Below are positions 3,552 through 18,983 of a stretch of 22,905 nt of DNA, piece after piece. The position numbers were made by a program, and so were the translations under genes. How positions within the stretch are numbered: position 1 is the first letter of the stretch; each line of letters begins with the position of its first letter. The notes beneath the pieces were generated by a model that was not told the DNA's origin, did no database searches, and worked only from the letters and a program-made list of their open reading frames with translations. Origin of the DNA: a virus; the IMG/VR virus record IMGVR_UViG_3300025417_000093, positions 1 through 22,905 of that record; one strand, 5' to 3'.

Positions 3552-3590
3552 CACGACACGGTTGACAAAATAATTTTGTCGTGCTATACT
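3551..3590 (+). promoter_or_regulatory. sigma70 promoter inside an inverted repeat
   Basis: TTGACA at 3562-3567 and TATACT at 3585-3590 with a 17-base spacer. GCACGAC (3551-3557) and GTCGTGC (3578-3584) are a perfect inverted repeat around the -35 box, the right arm touching the -10. It would transcribe tRNA-Thr, tRNA-Asn and the coiled-coil gene. The repeat may terminate HNH transcription or bind a regulator. Confidence 0.85.
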
Positions 3591-4331: not shown

Positions 4332-4375
4332 TTGACAAATAATCAGTTTAGTTATACAATACTTACATGAGTTGA
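4332..4375 (+). promoter_or_regulatory. sigma70 promoter P1 of the large RNA operon, with 2-codon leaderless ORF
   Basis: TTGACA 4332-4337, TACAAT 4355-4360, spacer 17. The expected start (seven bases past the -10) falls on the A of ATGAGTTGA (4367-4375), a Met-Ser-stop ORF. The segment TTACATGAGTTGAGAA is repeated after the second promoter. Confidence 0.85.
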
Positions 4376-4429
4376 GAAATTGATTCAGATTAATTGGTAA
4401 AAGATTGTTGTAGAAATACAAAAAATCAT

Positions 4430-4473
4430 TTGACAATAAATCAAGGTAGTGATACAATCATTACATGAGTTGA
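4430..4473 (+). promoter_or_regulatory. sigma70 promoter P2 of the large RNA operon
   Basis: TTGACA 4430-4435, TACAAT 4453-4458, spacer 17, in the extended -35 context TTGACAATAAAT shared with other promoters here. ATGAGTTGA (4465-4473) again begins exactly seven bases past the -10. A hairpin-like TTGTTGTAGAAATACAA lies upstream. The tandem arrangement is like P1/P2 of bacterial rrn operons. Confidence 0.85.
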
Positions 4474-4495
4474 GAAGTTATCAAACTTTTTAACG

Positions 4496-4508
4496 TGTTC
4501 TTTAAAAA
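4496..4508 (+). promoter_or_regulatory. boxA-like antitermination site
   Basis: TGTTCTTTAAAAA closely resembles the rrn leader boxA (TGCTCTTTAACAA in E. coli) bound by NusB/NusE. It lies just after the tandem promoters and before a long untranslated RNA, as in rRNA operons. This suggests host Nus-factor antitermination of the structured RNA and tRNA operon. The match is seen; function is inferred. Confidence 0.65.
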
Positions 4509-4917
4509 ATTAAGTTTCATATATCATCTTGAATTCAAGGTGTTATATGTAAGTATGGTAAAGGTTACCTATACCGTTAGGGGCTTTGTGCGGGAAGATG
4601 TATCGACGGATACACCCAATAGTCAGAGTTTATGAAGCGTATGAACGATAGTTTAGGCTATGCAGTTGAACGTGACGGAAGAATATAGGCAGTAATGACC
4701 GTGCAGGCTTACGTGGAGACGTTCCCGTAAGTAGAGATAGATGCACAATGGTTCCTTTAGTTTACTTACATATAACAGTTTATGCTCAGATAGTTCCACG
4801 CAAAGTTCGCAACTTTGGTCCACGGTGAGTTCGCAACTCATGGCAGTTGGAGAGGTAAACACCCCCGCTACAGGGGGTCTCCAGTGAAAGAAGGTGCAAA
4901 TCCTTCATAGAGCGCCA
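4509..4917 (+). ncRNA. large structured RNA, 5' domain (unidentified)
   Basis: About 400 bases with no credible + strand ORF but dense pairing. A perfect 15-bp long-range helix joins 4541-4555 and 4763-4777. Local hairpins include CTTGAATTCAAG within CATATA/TATATG arms, TGTATC-GACG-GATACA, and CTTACG/CGTAAG nested in GTGCA/TGCAC. Two near-repeat units each consist of CCACG plus a hairpin with loop GTTCGCAAC (4796-4817 and 4820-4840). A compound stem TGGAGA-CCCCC-GGGGG-TCTCCA spans 4848-4883. It ends with a T-arm-like GAAGG-TGCAAAT-CCTTC and GCGCCA; the preceding 3' strand CATAGAGC can pair with GCTTTGTG at 4583-4590. Two promoters and a boxA lie upstream, and three tRNAs follow. I do not recognise the family; a GOLLD/ROOL-class ornate phage RNA is the best guess. 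Confidence 0.7.
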
Positions 4918-4968
4918 TTTAAGGCAGTTTCAGATAGTGACCTGAAATCGTAAGTCCAATCTAACAAT

Positions 4969-5224: not shown

Positions 5225-5435
5225 GAATTTTGCGAGTGTCAGCAAGAGAAAGTCACGTTACCAAGGCTAGTTAGAACAGCCTAGTAGTGTAAAGCAACGG
5301 GGGGCGCAAAACCCTAGCAAAAATATAGACACGTTGGACCGGTATCCCAAGTGACAGACTGCCCCCGTCCGGACTAGTTAATTCGGGTGAAGCGTTGAGA
5401 TAACAGCGGCTCAACTACTTACAAATTCATTATTA
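5225..5435 (+). ncRNA. structured RNA, 3' domain (unidentified)
   Basis: About 210 bases without a + strand ORF that begins and ends in it, GC-richer than neighbouring coding DNA. ACGGGGG(G)C near 5300 can pair with GCCCCCGT near 5360-5370. GTGTC near 5236 pairs with GACAC near 5330, and GTCAC with GTGAC. Hairpins AGGCT/AGCCT, CCGGA/TTCGG and GTTGAG/CTCAAC follow in order. It directly abuts tRNA-Asp and is closed by the long hairpin at 5439. It is probably the 3' half of the RNA that begins at about 4509, or a second RNA. It does not match RNase P, tmRNA, SRP or 5S motifs that I know. Confidence 0.55.
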
Positions 5436-7094: not shown

Positions 7095-7169
7095 TGTCTC
7101 TCTGATGTAATGGCAGCATAGCGGTCTCCAAAACCGTTCGTTGGGGTTCGAGTCCCTAGGGGGACGCCA
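7095..7169 (+). tRNA. tRNA-Trp (CCA)
   Basis: Acceptor gtctctc/gggggac with G-U pairs, anticodon stem cggt/accg with loop ctccaaa (CCA), T-loop ttcgagt, discriminator G, encoded CCA. Confidence 0.94.
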
Positions 7170-7671: not shown

Positions 7672-7746
7672 CGTGGGGTGGAGAAGTAGTATCTCATCAG
7701 TCTCATAAGCTGAAGAACGGCGGTGCGATTCCGTCCCCCGCAACCA
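7672..7746 (+). tRNA. initiator tRNA-fMet (CAU)
   Basis: Acceptor cgtgggg opposite ccccgca leaves a C1-A72 mismatch, the bacterial initiator mark. Anticodon stem tcagt/gctga with loop ctcataa (CAT), T-loop tgcgatt, discriminator A, encoded CCA. It lacks the usual three G-C pairs in the anticodon stem. A phage-borne initiator may suit the leaderless genes proposed below. Confidence 0.85.
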
Positions 7747-13353: not shown

Positions 13354-13382
13354 TTGACAATAAATGGGTTCGGGTATATAAT
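13354..13382 (+). promoter_or_regulatory. consensus sigma70 promoter, leaderless output
   Basis: TTGACA 13354-13359, TATAAT 13377-13382, spacer 17. The GIY-YIG gene's ATG begins at 13389, seven bases past the -10, so transcription should start at the start codon. The core TTGACAATAAATGGGTT is shared with the promoter at 17638. TTCGGGT/ACTCGAA form an imperfect dyad around the -10. Confidence 0.9.
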
Positions 13383-13388
13383 ACTCTT

Positions 13389-13727
13389 ATGAACTCGAAA
13401 ATCACACGTAAACGCAGAACCGATAGAAATCAGGTGATTTACTTTATCCAAGATACAGTAACACTTGAGTATTACATTGGTTTAACTGCTATTTGCTACA
13501 AAGGAAATGTTCGCAAAACACTTACCCGTCGTATGCAAAAGCACATGCAACGTGCCTTGACTGAAAACAAAAACTGGGGCCTGTCACGTGCATTACGTGA
13601 ACGTGGTGCCGAGCGTTTTGTATTCGGGGTCATTGAAGTTGTTCGTGGTAAGCGTCCTGCTCATCAACGTGAAACAGAATTAATTAACAGTTTGCAACCT
13701 TCTCTTAACACATTTGGAGTAAAATAA
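13389..13727 (+). CDS. GIY-YIG family nuclease
   Basis: 112 aa. The two signature strands are VIYFIQDTVTLEYYIGLTA (the GIY part is degenerate, IYF; YIG intact at 29-31). They are followed by RRMQKHMQRA, where the conserved Arg is expected, and RETELINSLQPSLNT with the catalytic Glu and terminal Asn. It is a single small catalytic domain, as in free-standing phage homing or repair nucleases. No ribosome site precedes it; the mRNA is predicted to be leaderless. Confidence 0.85.
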   Translation: MNSKITRKRRTDRNQVIYFIQDTVTLEYYIGLTAICYKGNVRKTLTRRMQKHMQRALTENKNWGLSRALRERGAERFVFGVIEVVRGKRPAHQRETELINSLQPSLNTFGVK

Positions 13728-13813
13728 TGTCACAAGCACTTATCAATTTTGCAATTATGTTGTCTCCTATTTTCTTGATGTTGTTAGCAATCATCATTAA
13801 AGAAGGTTTTTAA
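13727..13813 (+). CDS. 28-aa single-span membrane peptide
   Basis: MSQALINFAIMLSPIFLMLLAIIIKEGF; ATG overlaps the previous stop (TAATG), and GGAG at 13715 is suitably placed. One hydrophobic segment spans nearly the whole peptide. The next gene begins one base after its stop. It may modulate the host membrane; no family known. Confidence 0.65.
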   Translation: MSQALINFAIMLSPIFLMLLAIIIKEGF

Positions 13814-13814
13814 T

Positions 13815-14177
13815 ATGAAAAGTTTAATAGATTTTGACGACATGCCACTGGGTTACATGGGTATGGAAATCCCACAACATACTAAAGAAACTTTGCACAA
13901 TTACCTAATCAGAGGTTGGGCCCCCGGTGGTTTTGTTGAAAGTATGTTGGCATGTAATTATGAACGTGCCTTATATACGGCTGATACCGCTAATCGCCGA
14001 TATTTTTGGGCCATAGCAATGTGGATTCGAGACAATGCCCCGAAGCATTCTTGGGGTAGTTATGAGACTATTGAAAAATGGCGTGATGATTTTATGAATC
14101 ATCGCACCAATTATGTTACTGAAGTAGAAAAGAAATATATTTGGGCAAAATTAAAAGAGGATCATGTCAACGAATAA
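13815..14177 (+). CDS. conserved phage-type hypothetical protein
   Basis: 120 aa beginning MKSLIDFDDMPLGYMGMEIPQHTKETLHNYL. The pattern with PGGFVESMLACNYERAL and ADTANRRYFWAIAMWI is of a kind I associate with small proteins in many phages that have no assigned function. It is globular, with many aromatic residues and mostly helical. Part of a tight four-gene run (13389-14359). Confidence 0.8.
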   Translation: MKSLIDFDDMPLGYMGMEIPQHTKETLHNYLIRGWAPGGFVESMLACNYERALYTADTANRRYFWAIAMWIRDNAPKHSWGSYETIEKWRDDFMNHRTNYVTEVEKKYIWAKLKEDHVNE

Positions 14178-14218
14178 CCCTCATGAGGCGTTGTATATAT
14201 AACACCTCAGGAGTTATT

Positions 14219-14359
14219 ATGTCACAACAAGATTTGATTTTAGAAGTTAGGGAAGTGATTCAACGTTATCATGGTGCTAGTGCCAATCAAATTGCAAAAA
14301 AACTGCATTTGGATATAGCTACAGTTGAACGTGTACTTAAACTAATTAAATCACATTAA
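14219..14359 (+). CDS. small winged/HTH DNA-binding protein
   Basis: 46 aa; ATG 14219 with CAGGAG upstream (an upstream in-frame ATG at 14141 is inside the previous gene). GASANQIAKKLHLDIATVERVLKLIK is a clear helix-turn-helix of the winged type. A stem GAGGCGTT/AACACCTC (14184-14209) precedes the ribosome site and could control its expression. It could bind one of the palindromic promoters nearby. Confidence 0.75.
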   Translation: MSQQDLILEVREVIQRYHGASANQIAKKLHLDIATVERVLKLIKSH

Positions 14360-14363
14360 CCAA

Positions 14364-14397
14364 AACACTTTACCCAAATGGGGTAGGGTGTTACATT
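14364..14397 (+). promoter_or_regulatory. weak promoter fused with a 12-bp hairpin
   Basis: AACACTTTACCC (14364-14375) pairs over 12 positions (two G-U) with GGGTAGGGTGTT (14381-14392). Inside it are TTTACC (14369-14374) and TACATT (14392-14397), 17 bases apart, a weak sigma70 pair. It may serve as terminator of the HTH gene and promoter or operator of the next. Confidence 0.6.
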
Positions 14398-14424
14398 AAC
14401 ACATACTAACCCAAGGAGTTTGAA

Positions 14425-14937
14425 ATGTTTCTAAAAGATGTCAATGAAGTATTGAACCACAAGATTGTAGGTGGTAGTGAATATTATTGGAACTGCTATC
14501 CCAAATCTAGGTTTATGGATTATGAAAGTGAATATGCACACGTAAGTGTGTTATTCAGTACTGAAACACAGGTAATCTATTGTGCTGAAATCAACGACAA
14601 GGAAAATAAATACAAACCCTATCGTTGGTTAAACCCTGAATATAAAGATGCTTACGTAGCTGAGGCAAAAGAGCGTGGTATTGATCCTAATAATGCATGG
14701 GACAACACAGATTGGCTTGATTTAGAATTATCAGTTGATTGGTTAGAAAAAGCAAAAGCAATTTTTAACGGTTTAAATTTTGATGAACGTATTCAAGTTC
14801 CAGTAAATATCGATAATGATGTAATATTAGAACTGGCCCTACAAGCACATAAACGTGATATTACACTAAATAAGATGATAGATATTGTTTTACAAACGGC
14901 AATTGACCAACATCGTGTCAACGGAACAATAAGCTGA
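14425..14937 (+). CDS. conserved phage protein with RHH-like C-terminus
   Basis: 170 aa with AAGGAG upstream. Residues 1-120 form an aromatic- and acidic-rich domain (MFLKDVNEVLNHKIVGGSEY...). The last 45 residues, VNIDNDVILELALQAHKRDITLNKMIDIVLQTAI, have the strand-helix-helix pattern of ribbon-helix-helix proteins. Similar proteins occur in numerous T4-like phages without known function. A dyad CGTGTCA/TGACACG (14914-14920, 14935-14941) overlaps its stop. Confidence 0.8.
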   Translation: MFLKDVNEVLNHKIVGGSEYYWNCYPKSRFMDYESEYAHVSVLFSTETQVIYCAEINDKENKYKPYRWLNPEYKDAYVAEAKERGIDPNNAWDNTDWLDLELSVDWLEKAKAIFNGLNFDERIQVPVNIDNDVILELALQAHKRDITLNKMIDIVLQTAIDQHRVNGTIS

Positions 14938-14972
14938 CACGTTATATATATATCATAACAAAGGAAATTATT

Positions 14973-15296
14973 ATGAAAAAACTTCTTTTAACTATTGGTT
15001 TGAGTTTAGGTTTAGTTGTAACAGCAAGTGCCCAAGCACATGAATGGCACGGTGGATATCATGGTTACTATCACGGTGGCTGTTATGGTTGTGGTAATTG
15101 GGTAGCTCCTGCAATTATCGGTGGTGTAATTGGCTACGAACTTAGCCGACCAAATACTGTAGTTGTTGAACAACCAAGTGTTGTATATACACAACCACAA
15201 GTAGTTGTCCAACCACCCCCAGCTGGCTATCATTGGCAAGAAATGATTGACCCACAAACAAACACAAAGAAAATTGTTTTAGTTCCCAATCAATAA
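14973..15296 (+). CDS. secreted His/Gly/Tyr-rich protein
   Basis: 107 aa. A signal peptide covers MKKLLLTIGLSLGLVVTASAQA, with a likely cut after ASA or AQA. The mature start HEWHGGYHGYYHGGCYGCG is rich in His, Gly and Cys, suggesting metal binding. A glycine-zipper-like hydrophobic stretch (APAIIGGVIGYEL) and a Val/Gln/Pro-rich region follow. Resembles small periplasmic proteins of proteobacteria, so possible host origin. AAAGGAAA precedes the start. Confidence 0.8.
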   Translation: MKKLLLTIGLSLGLVVTASAQAHEWHGGYHGYYHGGCYGCGNWVAPAIIGGVIGYELSRPNTVVVEQPSVVYTQPQVVVQPPPAGYHWQEMIDPQTNTKKIVLVPNQ

Positions 15297-15306
15297 CCAA
15301 AAACTC

Positions 15307-15362
15307 TTGAAACTTAAACGTGCCTGTTATATAATATCACTATGAATGATATTTTAACAGGC
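15307..15362 (+). promoter_or_regulatory. sigma70 promoter with 41-bp dyad over -10 and start codon
   Basis: TTGAAA 15307-15312, TATAAT 15330-15335, spacer 17. GCCTGTTA (15322-15329) matches TAACAGGC (15355-15362), and inside them AATATCA (15333-15339) matches TGATATT (15347-15353). The dyad centre is the ATG at 15342, which is also the predicted transcription start, so this is an operator-like DNA site rather than an RNA hairpin. Confidence 0.8.
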
Positions 15363-15632
15363 ATTTTTATTTGGATCAAAGATGATTACAAGACGCACCC
15401 ATTTAGGTTTTTCATTGAAGTCCTTGCATGGGCAATTAGTGTTGGCTGTAGTTTCACTATGGCAGTTACGGTACCCAATCCTCCGCTTTTTGTTTTATAC
15501 CCTGTGTGGATCACTGGTTGCGCTATGTACGCTTGGTCTGCTTTTACTAGGAAATCATTTGGCATGCTGGCTAACTACTTATTGTTAGTCACTATTGATA
15601 GTGTAGGTTTAATTAGGATGATAATATCATGA
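15342..15632 (+). CDS. inner-membrane protein
   Basis: 96 aa with an amphipathic N-terminus (WIKDDYKTHPFRFF) and about three hydrophobic spans (FIEVLAWAISVGCSFTMAV, PLFVLYPVWITGCAMYAWSAF, GMLANYLLLVTIDSVGLIRM). Of a type often seen in large phages, function unknown. The mRNA is predicted leaderless: the ATG sits seven bases after the -10. Its stop overlaps the next ATG (ATGA). Confidence 0.8.
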   Translation: MNDILTGIFIWIKDDYKTHPFRFFIEVLAWAISVGCSFTMAVTVPNPPLFVLYPVWITGCAMYAWSAFTRKSFGMLANYLLLVTIDSVGLIRMIIS

Positions 15633-16117
15633 GACTAGAATTAGACGAATTATTGTGCAAGAAGTATCCAAAGATGATGGTTAATCGTAATAAGGATATG
15701 AAGGAAACTTGCATGTGTTGGGGTTTTGAATGCGGTGATGGTTGGTTTACCCTGCTGGATCACTTAATGGGTAATATTCAAAATCATATTGATTGGACAA
15801 ATAGAAATAGTGAAGTTGTACAACAAGTAACGTTGGATCAAGTTAAAGAAAAGTTTGGTACACTACGTTTCTACTATACCGGTGGTGATGATTATATTAG
15901 AGGTATGGTAACAATGGCAGAAAGCATGAGTGGTGTTATATGTGAAGAATGTGGTGCCCAGGCTAAGACAAACTGGCCTAAAACTGAGAATGATGTTATT
16001 GGTGGTTGGGTACGTACAATATGTGAACCATGTGAGGAAGCACGTGAAAAAGCATATGCGCTACGCATGGCTGAATATAATTTATCAAAACCAACCGTAA
16101 AGGTAACAGACGTATGA
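15629..16117 (+). CDS. conserved phage protein with zinc-binding pair
   Basis: 162 aa. CEECGAQAKTNWPK and, 30 residues later, TICEPCEEAREKA supply two CxxC pairs that likely hold a zinc ion. The upstream part has VKEKFGTLRFYYTGGDDYIRGMVTMAESMS, a motif I associate with uncharacterised phage and prophage proteins. Coupled to both neighbours by ATGA overlaps, so it is part of a membrane-protein, zinc-protein and AbrB-like operon. Confidence 0.8.
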   Translation: MRLELDELLCKKYPKMMVNRNKDMKETCMCWGFECGDGWFTLLDHLMGNIQNHIDWTNRNSEVVQQVTLDQVKEKFGTLRFYYTGGDDYIRGMVTMAESMSGVICEECGAQAKTNWPKTENDVIGGWVRTICEPCEEAREKAYALRMAEYNLSKPTVKVTDV

Positions 16118-16557
16118 AATATACTATAGAATTAGAAGAAGATCCAAACACAGGAGATATGATTATGCCTTTTCCCGAAGGTATGTTAGAAAAATTAGAT
16201 TGGAAAGAGGGCGACACATTAGATTGGAAAGATAACGGTGATGGTACCTTTACATTATCCAAAATTGAAACTGAGTGGGTATTGGTAGAAGCCCTAAGCC
16301 AATTCAAAGTAAGTTACATGGTTGAAGTGCCCAAAGGTAAGGCTGAATATGCATTGGATACTGTAACTATGGAACAAGCAAAAGAATTTAGCCAAGAACA
16401 TTTACGTCCAACTGACATTATTCTTGGCCATCGTGTTGTCACTCAAGAGGAAGCACTAGCGTTATGTGACACACTCAATGAGTATGGTGCTACTTGGGAC
16501 AAAGAAACAAAAATCAAAAACTTTTTTACAACAACGGAAGATCAAAATGCTAGATAA
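16114..16557 (+). CDS. AbrB-like N-terminal domain protein
   Basis: 147 aa. The first ~50 residues (MKYTIELEEDPNTGDMIMPFPEGMLEKLDWKEGDTLDWKD) have the swapped-hairpin pattern of AbrB/SpoVT transcription factors, with a duplicated LDWK-GDTLDWKDN motif. The rest (VLVEALSQFKVSYMVEVPKGKAEYALDTV...) looks like a strand-rich second domain present in phage proteins of unknown role. Overlaps the previous gene by ATGA and the next by 11 bases. Confidence 0.75.
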   Translation: MKYTIELEEDPNTGDMIMPFPEGMLEKLDWKEGDTLDWKDNGDGTFTLSKIETEWVLVEALSQFKVSYMVEVPKGKAEYALDTVTMEQAKEFSQEHLRPTDIILGHRVVTQEEALALCDTLNEYGATWDKETKIKNFFTTTEDQNAR

Positions 16558-16864
16558 CACAAAATCCTCAGAATGGACCGAACAAGAATGGAACCAATTT
16601 TCTGATTGGTTAAAAGGAATGTTGCAGGCAGATAAAGTAGAAGTTACTTTTACAAAAGCGGATGGTACTGAACGTGTAATGAATTGCACATTACATCCTG
16701 ACTTGCTACCAAAGGTAGAAATAAAAGAAGATGCTAAACCTCGAAAAGAAAGTACAACTGCTATGCGTGTCTATGATTTGGACAAAAAAGAATGGCGTAG
16801 TTTTACTATCAAAAAGGTTAATAAAATTCAAATCGCTTTAACTGCCCCGCAAGCCGAAGGTTGA
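16547..16864 (+). CDS. phage protein with DUF2693-like beta domain
   Basis: 105 aa; ATG 16547 with CGGAAG just before, inside the end of the previous gene. WLKGMLQADKVEVTFTKADGTERVMNCTL and TAMRVYDLDKKEWRSFTIKKV match the pattern of short phage proteins (DUF2693, WYL-like small barrel) that often accompany replication genes. A -35 box overlaps its stop codon. Confidence 0.75.
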   Translation: MLDNTKSSEWTEQEWNQFSDWLKGMLQADKVEVTFTKADGTERVMNCTLHPDLLPKVEIKEDAKPRKESTTAMRVYDLDKKEWRSFTIKKVNKIQIALTAPQAEG

Positions 16865-16889
16865 CGATAAATACGGGTCATGCTATAAT
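16861..16889 (+). promoter_or_regulatory. sigma70 promoter, leaderless output
   Basis: TTGACG 16861-16866, TATAAT 16884-16889, spacer 17, in the extended form TTGACGATAAAT. TCATG (16878-16882) and CATGA (16895-16899) flank the -10. The ATG at 16896 is seven bases beyond the -10. Confidence 0.88.
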
Positions 16890-16895
16890 ACTCAC

Positions 16896-17051
16896 ATGAA
16901 GAAAGAAATCTTATCCTTTACTATTAAAGCTCCAAAAACTAGGGCTCACTATGTGTTGTTTTCACACAACACCCCTTTCACACCTAAGGTCGTGAAGGAT
17001 AAGACTCTTTATAAACGTAACCCAAAACATCGTAACAAAGTCGAGGAGTAA
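16896..17051 (+). CDS. small basic protein, leaderless
   Basis: 51 aa (MKKEILSFTIKAPKTRAHYV...KHRNKVEE). Very basic (Lys, Arg and His rich) with one beta-prone stretch. No ribosome site; the ATG lies at the predicted transcription start. GAGGAG in its last codons serves the next gene. Unknown function, probably nucleic-acid binding. Confidence 0.7.
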   Translation: MKKEILSFTIKAPKTRAHYVLFSHNTPFTPKVVKDKTLYKRNPKHRNKVEE

Positions 17052-17053
17052 TT

Positions 17054-17344
17054 ATGGAACAAGGACGTGGTACTTGCCCAGTTTGTAACGGGACACATAG
17101 AGTACCTGCAGGTAACGACAAATACAAAACTGTTACCTCTGGATACGACAAGGAAACAGACACTTTTGAATGCAAAAATTGCGGTGGCCAATACATGTTT
17201 GGCAAACCACGTGGTGATGTAAAACTTAGACCTGATGGTACACCCTGTACTCACAGTTATTCAAGCAAAAATGTAGGTCGTTGTTTAACACAATATACCT
17301 GCATACATTGTAGCGAAAGCTACCAAATCGATTCTGGTGGTTAA
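17054..17344 (+). CDS. zinc-ribbon protein
   Basis: 96 aa. CPVCNGTHRVP, FECKNCGGQY and, near the end, YTCIHCSESYQ give three CxxC pairs, with a further Cys-Thr-His (CTHSY) between. This pattern suggests two zinc ribbons of rubredoxin or DnaJ type. Could bind nucleic acid or protein. Starts two bases after the previous stop. Confidence 0.8.
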   Translation: MEQGRGTCPVCNGTHRVPAGNDKYKTVTSGYDKETDTFECKNCGGQYMFGKPRGDVKLRPDGTPCTHSYSSKNVGRCLTQYTCIHCSESYQIDSGG

Positions 17345-17362
17345 TTAACAAAAGGAAATATT

Positions 17363-17587
17363 ATGACACTTAAACAAAAAGCACTTTTACAAACAGTTGG
17401 CATTATTCTAACAATATTATTTGGATCAATCGCGGTTCAAATTCTATTGGCTACAATATCCGCAGAGGTATTGACGTATGCATTTGCAACATTATTGGGT
17501 CTTTTGGGGTTCAAATTAATCTATGATTTGGTCCTTTCTAGACTAGAATCCGAAGAAATCTTTAAAAATATGTCCGAAAAACAGTAA
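17363..17587 (+). CDS. two-span membrane protein
   Basis: 74 aa with AAAGGAAA upstream. Two hydrophobic helices (LLQTVGIILTILFGSIAVQI and VLTYAFATLLGLLGFKLIYD) form a hairpin, followed by a charged tail. No family recognised. It could be holin-like, though the gene context is early rather than lytic. Confidence 0.75.
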   Translation: MTLKQKALLQTVGIILTILFGSIAVQILLATISAEVLTYAFATLLGLLGFKLIYDLVLSRLESEEIFKNMSEKQ

Positions 17588-17588
17588 G

Positions 17589-17666
17589 TTGTTGTTTTTA
17601 CACAACAAAAAAAGATTGATTTTTTTGGATAAAAAGGTTGACAATAAATGGGTTTGGGCATATAAT
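17589..17666 (+). promoter_or_regulatory. hairpin followed by consensus sigma70 promoter
   Basis: TTGTTGT (17589-17595) and ACAACAA (17602-17608) form a hairpin related to those at 4304 and 13327. TTGACA 17638-17643 and TATAAT 17661-17666 follow, spacer 17, with core TTGACAATAAATGGGTT as at 13354. ATATAA/TTATAT is a short dyad on the -10. Here the gene has a normal leader with GGAGAG. Confidence 0.88.
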
Positions 17667-17698
17667 ACTTATATTGAATCAACAAACGGAGAGAGTAA

Positions 17699-18097
17699 AT
17701 GGCTTACATGAATCAAGAGCGCAAAGCAAAAATCGCAACTATTCTTAACCCAATCCTTAAGAAATATGGTGTTAAAGGTAGCTTGTCTGTTCGCAACCAC
17801 ATGACTATTTGCTTGACCGTAAAGTCAGGTAAAATTGACTTCATTGGTAACTACAATGAAACAGTTAATACTGTTAGGGGCGACCGTATGGCAGTAGGTT
17901 CCATTGACGTTAATCCCTACTGGTTTCAGGATCACTTTTCAGGTGTTTCCAAACAATTCTTAACAGAGGCTTTTAAGGCTCTTAAGGGTGCTGATTGGTA
18001 TGACCGTAGTGATGCAATGACCGATTATTTTGATACCGCTTACTACGTTGATCTTAACATTGGTAAATGGAATAAACCTTACGTATTAGAGGCTTAA
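17699..18097 (+). CDS. conserved phage/plasmid hypothetical protein
   Basis: 132 aa starting MAYMNQERKAKIATILNPILKKYGVKGSLSV. The pattern KYGVKGSLSVRNHMTICLTVKSGKIDF recalls proteins of phages and plasmids with no known function. It appears to be an alpha/beta fold with an aromatic-rich second half (DWYDRSDAMTDYFDTAYYVDLNIG). GGAGAG lies upstream. First gene of a three-gene unit. Confidence 0.8.
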   Translation: MAYMNQERKAKIATILNPILKKYGVKGSLSVRNHMTICLTVKSGKIDFIGNYNETVNTVRGDRMAVGSIDVNPYWFQDHFSGVSKQFLTEAFKALKGADWYDRSDAMTDYFDTAYYVDLNIGKWNKPYVLEA

Positions 18098-18098
18098 T

Positions 18099-18338
18099 AT
18101 GAATATTGCTGAAACAAAATATTTTCAGCGTATTAGTCAAATGGATCAGGACCAATTTCAAAATTGGTTTCTGACTCTAAATGACGAAGAGGCTGCTTAT
18201 GCACTCAACCTTATGGAAAGGGCACGTGCTGAAATTCAGGAAAAAATTGTGCAAATTTTTGAGGAACCAGAGGCTACTGAAACTTTAGATGTAGCAAAAT
18301 CAGTTCTAGGTAAATATACATTAAAGGGTTCACTATGA
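18099..18338 (+). CDS. small helical hypothetical protein
   Basis: 79 aa, acidic and mainly helical (QMDQDQFQNWFLTLNDEEAAYALNLMERA). It starts one base after the preceding stop, and its own stop overlaps the next ATG (ATGA). No family recognised. Confidence 0.78.
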   Translation: MNIAETKYFQRISQMDQDQFQNWFLTLNDEEAAYALNLMERARAEIQEKIVQIFEEPEATETLDVAKSVLGKYTLKGSL

Positions 18339-18490
18339 AAACTTTTTGGGCACTTGTCAAAACATCTACTCAACCCGGTGCAGGATTTAACAGGGTTACA
18401 ATTCAAGCTGACAACACATATATGGCTACCCAGCTATTAAAAGGAATGTATGGTCCTTTGTTGTTGTCTGAATCGGCTAACCCAATTTGA
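18335..18490 (+). CDS. 51-aa conserved small protein
   Basis: MKTFWALVKTSTQPGAGFNR... A first strand (FWALVKT), a second (RVTIQADN), then a helix (TYMATQLLKGMYG) and LLLSESANPI suggest a tiny alpha/beta domain that I recall from several phages with no known role. Coupled by ATGA overlap to the 18099 gene. Confidence 0.75.
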   Translation: MKTFWALVKTSTQPGAGFNRVTIQADNTYMATQLLKGMYGPLLLSESANPI

Positions 18491-18500
18491 AAGATTTTGG

Positions 18501-18541
18501 TAACATAAATGGTTGACAATAAAAGCCCTTTATGTTATCAT
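18501..18541 (+). promoter_or_regulatory. sigma70 promoter enclosed by a 9-bp inverted repeat
   Basis: TTGACA 18513-18518 and TATCAT 18536-18541, spacer 17, extended form TTGACAATAAA. TAACATAAA (18501-18509) is the exact reverse complement of TTTATGTTA (18529-18537), placing the -35 box in the loop and the -10 at the right arm. Confidence 0.85.
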
Positions 18542-18547
18542 TATACT

Positions 18548-18604
18548 GTGCAATACGTAATTGCATTTTTTATCAACTTAGCTTATCTTATAGAGGAAAC
18601 TTAA
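18548..18604 (+). CDS. possible leaderless 18-aa leader peptide
   Basis: A GTG at 18548, seven bases after the -10, opens a frame encoding (M)QYVIAFFINLAYLIEET. It ends at a TAA one base before the next ATG, and the last codons are the ribosome site GAGGAA. Such an ORF could couple translation to the gene at 18606. The start codon and its use are inference. Confidence 0.35.
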   Translation: MQYVIAFFINLAYLIEET

Positions 18605-18605
18605 A

Positions 18606-18983
18606 ATGGCTAATCAATTGTTCAAAGTCGCAGGTCTTACTACTCACAATGGTAACACTAAGGTTCGTTTTACTGATGATATGGTTCGCCGTATCAAGCA
18701 ATTCACTAAAGGTGGTGCAAGTCGCATTGACTTGGTAGAGTTGCCCAGTGAGATGACAAAAATCGAGGCACTTAAGTATTTGGCATCACATGCTGATTTT
18801 CAATCTGCCGGAGACCAAGCAACTATCGCTGACTGTCTTGCTGACAAATTGAAGGAAGCAAACAAGGGTGAAGTTAAAGTTAAGGCTGTTGCTAAGCCTT
18901 CACTTGATAGCATTAAATCACGTGCTAAAAAAGTAACTAAAGAAGTTACCCCTGAAGAAATTCTTTCTGTAGTACAAGAGTAA
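18606..18983 (+). CDS. conserved phage hypothetical protein
   Basis: 125 aa with GAGGAA at 18592-18597. N-terminal region NQLFKVAGLTTHNGNTKVRFTDDMVRRIKQFTKGG is strand-then-helix; the C-terminal third (KVKAVAKPSLDSIKSRAKKVTKEVT) is basic and likely extended or helical. Unknown function. It has its own promoter, and an efficient terminator follows directly. Confidence 0.8.
   Translation: MANQLFKVAGLTTHNGNTKVRFTDDMVRRIKQFTKGGASRIDLVELPSEMTKIEALKYLASHADFQSAGDQATIADCLADKLKEANKGEVKVKAVAKPSLDSIKSRAKKVTKEVTPEEILSVVQE

Follow-up and report, generated by a model that had tools for sequence, protein, structure and literature searches.

Promoters and start codons of the window

The stretch of DNA analysed here, referred to as the window, is an IMG/VR virus record of 22,905 nt with 38% GC, in which ARAGORN identified 26 tRNAs and whose + strand carries many consensus sigma70 promoters. 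Promoters were classed as strong if they had at least 11 of the 12 consensus bases and a 17-nt spacer. The offset is the number of bases between the end of the -10 box and the ATG, so that an ATG at offset 6 starts from the seventh base. Thirteen strong promoters were found in the window, five of them with an ATG at offset 6. The features discussed below are the following:

4332-4360, + strand: first tandem promoter in the tRNA array, predicted transcript start AUGAGUUGAGAA
4430-4458, + strand: second tandem promoter in the tRNA array, transcript start AUGAGUUGAGAA, then a boxA-like UGUUCUUUAAAAA
7672-7746, + strand: tRNA-Met(CAU), C1xA72 mismatch as in initiator tRNAs
13354-13382, + strand: promoter TTGACA-N17-TATAAT, its -35 box being the left edge of a putative mobile unit
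13389-13727, + strand: predicted leaderless ORF, 112 aa, GIY-YIG nuclease domain, ATG at the predicted +1, no Shine-Dalgarno (SD) site
13727-13813, + strand: 28-aa hydrophobic ORF, its ATG overlapping the TAA of the GIY-YIG ORF (TAATG)
15307-15335, + strand: promoter TTGAAA-N17-TATAAT
15342-15632, + strand: predicted leaderless ORF, 96 aa, hydrophobic protein, ATG at the predicted +1
16861-16889, + strand: promoter TTGACG-N17-TATAAT
16896-17051, + strand: predicted leaderless ORF, 51 aa, DUF7230-like (PF23876, 24 bits, below the cut-off)
17638-17666, + strand: promoter of the same family, but followed by an SD leader of 26 nt and the gene at 17699 (contrast case)
18513-18541, + strand: promoter TTGACA-N17-TATCAT
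18548-18566, + strand: 5'-terminal hairpin GUGCAAU-ACGUA-AUUGCAU (-5.4 kcal/mol), then a U-run; includes the supposed GTG start
18606-18983, + strand: gene served by the 18513 promoter, SD GAGGAAA, aligned with its relatives (80 fetched)

Three of the promoters with an ATG at offset 6 (13354, 15307 and 16861) head ORFs of 112, 96 and 51 codons. Sigma70 transcripts usually begin approximately 7 nt past the -10 box, and the ATG is therefore the predicted +1 at these promoters. An SD site is absent at all three ATGs (13389, 15342 and 16896) and the -10 box starts 12 nt 5' of each, which is the arrangement of TA-led leaderless genes (Zheng 2011). The preliminary description had placed a start codon at the seventh base after the -10 box not only here but also at 4332, 4430 and 18513, where we likewise found an ATG, an ATG and a GTG at offset 6, and the 17-nt spacer that it gave was confirmed for all six promoters. 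That most of them share TTGACAATAAAT was overstated, as the sequence is exact at 4430 and 13354, deviates slightly at 16861, 18513 and 4332, and is absent from 15307; it is also exact at 17638, a promoter that is not leaderless. SD leaders follow three other strong promoters of the window (6446, 10265 and 11413), and the promoters at 3562, 4180 and 7455 serve tRNAs.

The remaining three sites are not coding starts. At 4367 and 4465, the supposed mini-ORFs ATG-AGT-TGA belong to a conserved leader RNA, whose 5' end they form, since ten distinct copies begin with ATGAGTTGAGA (nine with ATGAGTTGAGAA), all of them in tRNA arrays and most with a boxA-like sequence downstream, and three of the ten have their ATG at offset 7. 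The ten distinct copies of the conserved transcript start AUGAGUUGAGA(A) are spread over seven phage records, always in or beside tRNA arrays and usually with a boxA-like GUUCUUUA downstream. The tandem-promoter block at 4367-4510 recurs beside tRNA arrays in six related phages and, judging from the resemblance, is possibly a phage-borne copy of an antitermination leader of the rRNA type. Elsewhere among the tRNAs, the non-coding stretches between tRNAs at 4500-4960 and 5225-5430 have no Rfam match, GOLLD RNA lies in the tRNA array of the related phage L164 (11568-12033), and between tRNA-Leu and tRNA-Ile, at 405-633, the whole-window scan matched archaeal RNase P RNA over its full length but below the threshold (35.4 bits, cut-off 84), a match that was lost when the stretch was scanned alone.

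The GTG at 18548, which had been taken for a leaderless start, is the foot of a hairpin ahead of an SD gene. It was rejected as a start because the relatives replace the GTG and keep the hairpin and the U-run before the SD gene; their pairing is kept while the hairpin sequence is changed (GTGCTGA/TCAGTAC, GTGTC-GCAA-GACAT), followed by U-runs and then the SD gene. Lying between promoter and SD gene, the hairpin and U-run at 18548-18570 might act as an attenuator or stabilise the mRNA.

Frequency of the spacing in related and unrelated phages

As the preliminary description had expected, the spacing is more common than in shuffled sequence. In the window, 5 cases were seen as opposed to a mean of 0.05 and a maximum of 1 in 100 dinucleotide shuffles. 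The comparison was extended to eight records by adding seven related contigs to the window, two of which are 349 and 367 kb long, giving 1.33 Mb of related phage contigs with 244 strong promoters; an ATG at offset 6 follows 38 of the 244, compared with 0.4 in the shuffles. At offset 7 there are 10 ATGs, and the mean of the other offsets from 3 to 20 is 2.5. Restricted to ATGs that open an ORF of 35 aa or more, the count was 23 at offset 6, 4 at offset 7 and approximately 0.9 elsewhere. The 23 ORFs belong to 12 protein families and none has an upstream SD (0/23); the same holds for offsets 6-7 together (0/74), again as in TA-led genes. A second ATG mode, mostly SD-led, lies at offsets 29-34. 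Leader length is therefore bimodal, with either 0-1 nt or 23-28 nt including an SD site, and within the one promoter family the 23-28-nt SD leaders are more common than leaderless starts. At offsets 29-34 in L099-L167, near-identical SD leaders (ACTTGTATTGATTGATTAAAGGAG, for example) recur ahead of unrelated genes, which suggests shuffled promoter-plus-leader cassettes.

An ATG at +1 might also be a by-product of the preference of RNA polymerase for A combined with promoter duplication, with translation starting elsewhere. The promoters are visibly related, the conserved AUGAGUUGAGAA leaders have a gene-free ATG at +1, and a few genes possess an internal SD start. However, ATGs at offset 6 open ORFs far more often than those at offsets 0-5, with 13/13 against 2/15 among TTGACAATAAAT promoters sampled from IMG/VR and 16/18 against 13/33, and the layout is common to unrelated promoters and unrelated proteins. 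Together with the GIY-YIG gene described below, which has no alternative start and whose conservation begins at residue 2, these counts make this explanation very unlikely.

A wider sample was drawn from all IMG/VR contigs in which an ATG follows a perfect promoter by no more than 25 nt. In it, the offsets at which an ORF is opened peak at 6 (16 cases) and 7 (11 cases), with 0-4 cases at every other offset between 0 and 12. Across the data, offset 6 or 7 was seen in 33 families, a count to be read as an upper bound because of internal SD starts and because weak singletons may be due to chance. An SD together with another start, a few codons into the ORF (ATGAAGGAGAANNNATG, for example), was found in 4 of the 33 families and in one member of a fifth, which are to be discounted; of the families seen at least twice, 14 have one or more members without an internal SD start. 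The products, identified by their N-terminal sequence, include a FEN/RNase H-like nuclease and a J-domain protein, as well as single cases of thymidylate synthase and a TilS-like protein. For FEN/RNase H, J-domain and ThyA, the N-terminus fits the usual start of the protein and the genes begin at the predicted +1 or +2.

No ORF at offset 6 was found among 56 promoters of T4 early regions or among 16 promoters of the left part of T5, and the isolate Melnitz has a weak peak at offset 7 only. In Melnitz (host Methylophilales H5P1), a -10-like box ends 7 nt before the annotated starts at 7167, 24762 and 37295. With the excess at offsets 6 and 7 in the IMG/VR sample and none at offset 6 in T4 and T5, the layout thus extends beyond this clade and is not general to phages. 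A search for the promoter pattern in bacterial genomes gave 15 scattered matches, mostly in Clostridia, and no host.

Homologues of 15342 that have a promoter keep offset 6 whether the -10 box is TATAAT, TACAAT, TATCAT or TAGAAT; many other homologues sit inside operons without a promoter, which counts against a leaderless reading. Relatives of 16896 have their ATG at offset 6, 7 or 9, corresponding to predicted leaders of 0-3 nt, all without SD.

The GIY-YIG gene as a putative promoter-plus-ORF unit

The 13389 protein was assigned to the GIY-YIG nucleases by PF01541 with 24.2 bits, above the curated cut-off of 22.6, and also matches phrog_5123 (E 3e-6). It has 339 relatives in IMG/VR, 80 of which were retrieved, and in 80/80 the -35 box, the -10 box and the ATG have the same ungapped spacing. 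Mean entropy is 1.67 bits just 5' of the -35 box and 0.54 bits at -35 to -1, and in codons 2-20 it amounts to 0.10, 0.17 and 0.89 bits at codon positions 1, 2 and 3, respectively. As this codon-type variation is present from codon 2, the gene is coding from its first codons.

These alignments also bear on a start site farther upstream, which would give short, unstructured leaders without SD that are read by standby binding or 70S scanning. The start sites here are predicted, relatives of 16896 tolerate 0-3 nt, and phage proteins could shift transcription start sites, a point against the leaderless reading in general. However, nothing is conserved 5' of the -35 box, the consensus -35 and -10 boxes, 17 nt apart, pin the start to about offset 6-7, and the offset histogram is as narrow as expected of a start-site distribution, so that we give an upstream start hardly any credence and retain initiation at the 5'-terminal AUG as the preferred reading.

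In the 80 relatives, conservation sets in abruptly at the -35 box and stops abruptly at the stop codon, the sequences 5' and 3' of these edges being unrelated. Upstream sequences fell into 14 clusters and downstream genes into 16, which occur in 26 combinations at 70 loci. From the abrupt edges and the varying neighbours it follows that promoter and leaderless ORF behave as a mobile unit, whose mobility is our reading of these comparisons; homologous recombination between repeated promoter sequences, without homing, could give the same pattern. While the neighbours differ, no single homing target was seen, and tblastn gave no match in GenBank phages. The Seg proteins of T4, free-standing GIY-YIG homing endonucleases, share the domain and the different neighbours in different phages; unlike them, the 13389 product has 112 aa and no added DNA-binding domain was seen. 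The mobile regulatory cassettes of T4-type phages, reportedly described by Arbiol in 2010 as a promoter plus stem-loop between genes, are likewise promoter-bearing units shuffled between phages, whereas the unit found here consists of promoter and ORF, the leader being absent.

At the 3' end, the stop codon overlaps the next start (TAATG or ATGA) in 67 of the 72 relatives in which a following gene was detected. In the window, the 28-aa ORF at 13727 is probably read by such stop-start coupling.

Probable initiation at the 5'-terminal AUG

We consider it highly probable that one mechanism accounts for these patterns. Host RNA polymerase with sigma70 would begin transcription at the A of the ATG, yielding an mRNA that begins with 5'-AUG and has no leader, and a ribosome, probably an intact 70S particle with fMet-tRNA, would start on the 5'-terminal AUG; 70S particles are known to bind such AUGs (PMC9031893). 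A single promoter family would thereby serve two fixed leader architectures, one of 0-1 nt (leaderless) and one of 23-28 nt with SD. The GIY-YIG gene would be a self-contained leaderless module, bounded by the -35 box and the stop codon, which needs no local ribosome site, has different neighbours in each phage and hands ribosomes on to the next gene via the overlapping TAATG or ATGA. On sequence grounds, the case for leaderless mRNAs is good at three of the six sites named by the preliminary description and at many genes of related phages. As the layout is kept across these phages, they seem to use leaderless translation regularly, as a second start mode beside the ordinary one.

The preliminary description went further and, with reference to the fMet tRNA, proposed a deliberate leaderless programme, which, as a single programme, does not agree with the finding that the same promoter family is more often SD-led and that half of the six sites do not start a coding sequence. 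A dedicated programme could act through a phage fMet tRNA and a phage bS21 that bias the host ribosomes. An initiator-like tRNA is present at 7672 and in relatives; its anticodon stem (TCAGT/GCTGA) lacks the three G-C pairs (GGG/CCC) of initiator tRNA, as does the tRNA-fMet of T5. Genes for bS21 occur in 5 of the 8 records. Since extra fMet-tRNA favours leaderless mRNAs in vitro (PMC9031893), a link with this tRNA is possible but unspecific; phiYS40, moreover, shifts IF2/IF3 (PMC3594737). Against such a programme, the same genomes hold more SD-led than leaderless genes, no IF3 gene was found in the records and no bS21 in the 23-kb window, and T5 has an fMet tRNA yet lacks the layout at the 16 promoters examined. 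We therefore regard it as unlikely, although bS21 and the initiator-like tRNA could favour the leaderless mode in these phages, whose promoter-proximal genes mostly use SD.

Several known systems share features with the predicted arrangement. The cI mRNA of phage lambda, transcribed from PRM, is a phage mRNA with its AUG at +1. It serves as a model leaderless mRNA (PMC9031893), but concerns a single regulated gene with a weak promoter. In phiYS40, also a large phage with many leaderless mRNAs (those described here being predicted), they make up most middle and late mRNAs (PMC3594737) and the Thermus host is already rich in them, whereas here they belong to a minority of consensus sigma70 promoters beside SD-led ones. 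In Deinococcus-Thermus, cellular genes commonly have a -10 box adjoining the ORF (PMC12340547), and there it likewise lies 6-7 bp before an ATG without SD, with a short or absent leader; unlike the phage promoters with their full consensus -35 and -10 boxes, these cellular genes often need no -35 box. Leaderless genes are widespread in bacteria at low frequency, including some beta- and gammaproteobacteria (PMC3160421). For T4-like or jumbo phages of SD-using hosts, no publication on this layout was found in a search that left most subscription journals outside.

There is about an even chance that consensus-sigma70 leaderless starts are a standard second initiation mode in many uncultured aquatic phages, replication genes included, and that units of a promoter and a leaderless ORF spread as plug-in operon heads, from which ribosomes pass to whichever gene follows. 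If so, many phages whose hosts use SD sites would possess a built-in complement of mRNAs initiated by 70S ribosomes, and these could stay translated when SD initiation is limiting; a strong promoter with a leaderless ORF would be a portable expression unit. Gene callers lean partly on SD sites and may misplace leaderless starts, for which the fixed distance from the -10 box to the ATG offers a simple correction rule.

Apart from these genes, a 152-aa ORF at 12844-13299 matches the C-terminal domain of malonyl-CoA decarboxylase (PF05292, 31.7 bits, above the cut-off), and its product perhaps has an acetyltransferase-like fold.
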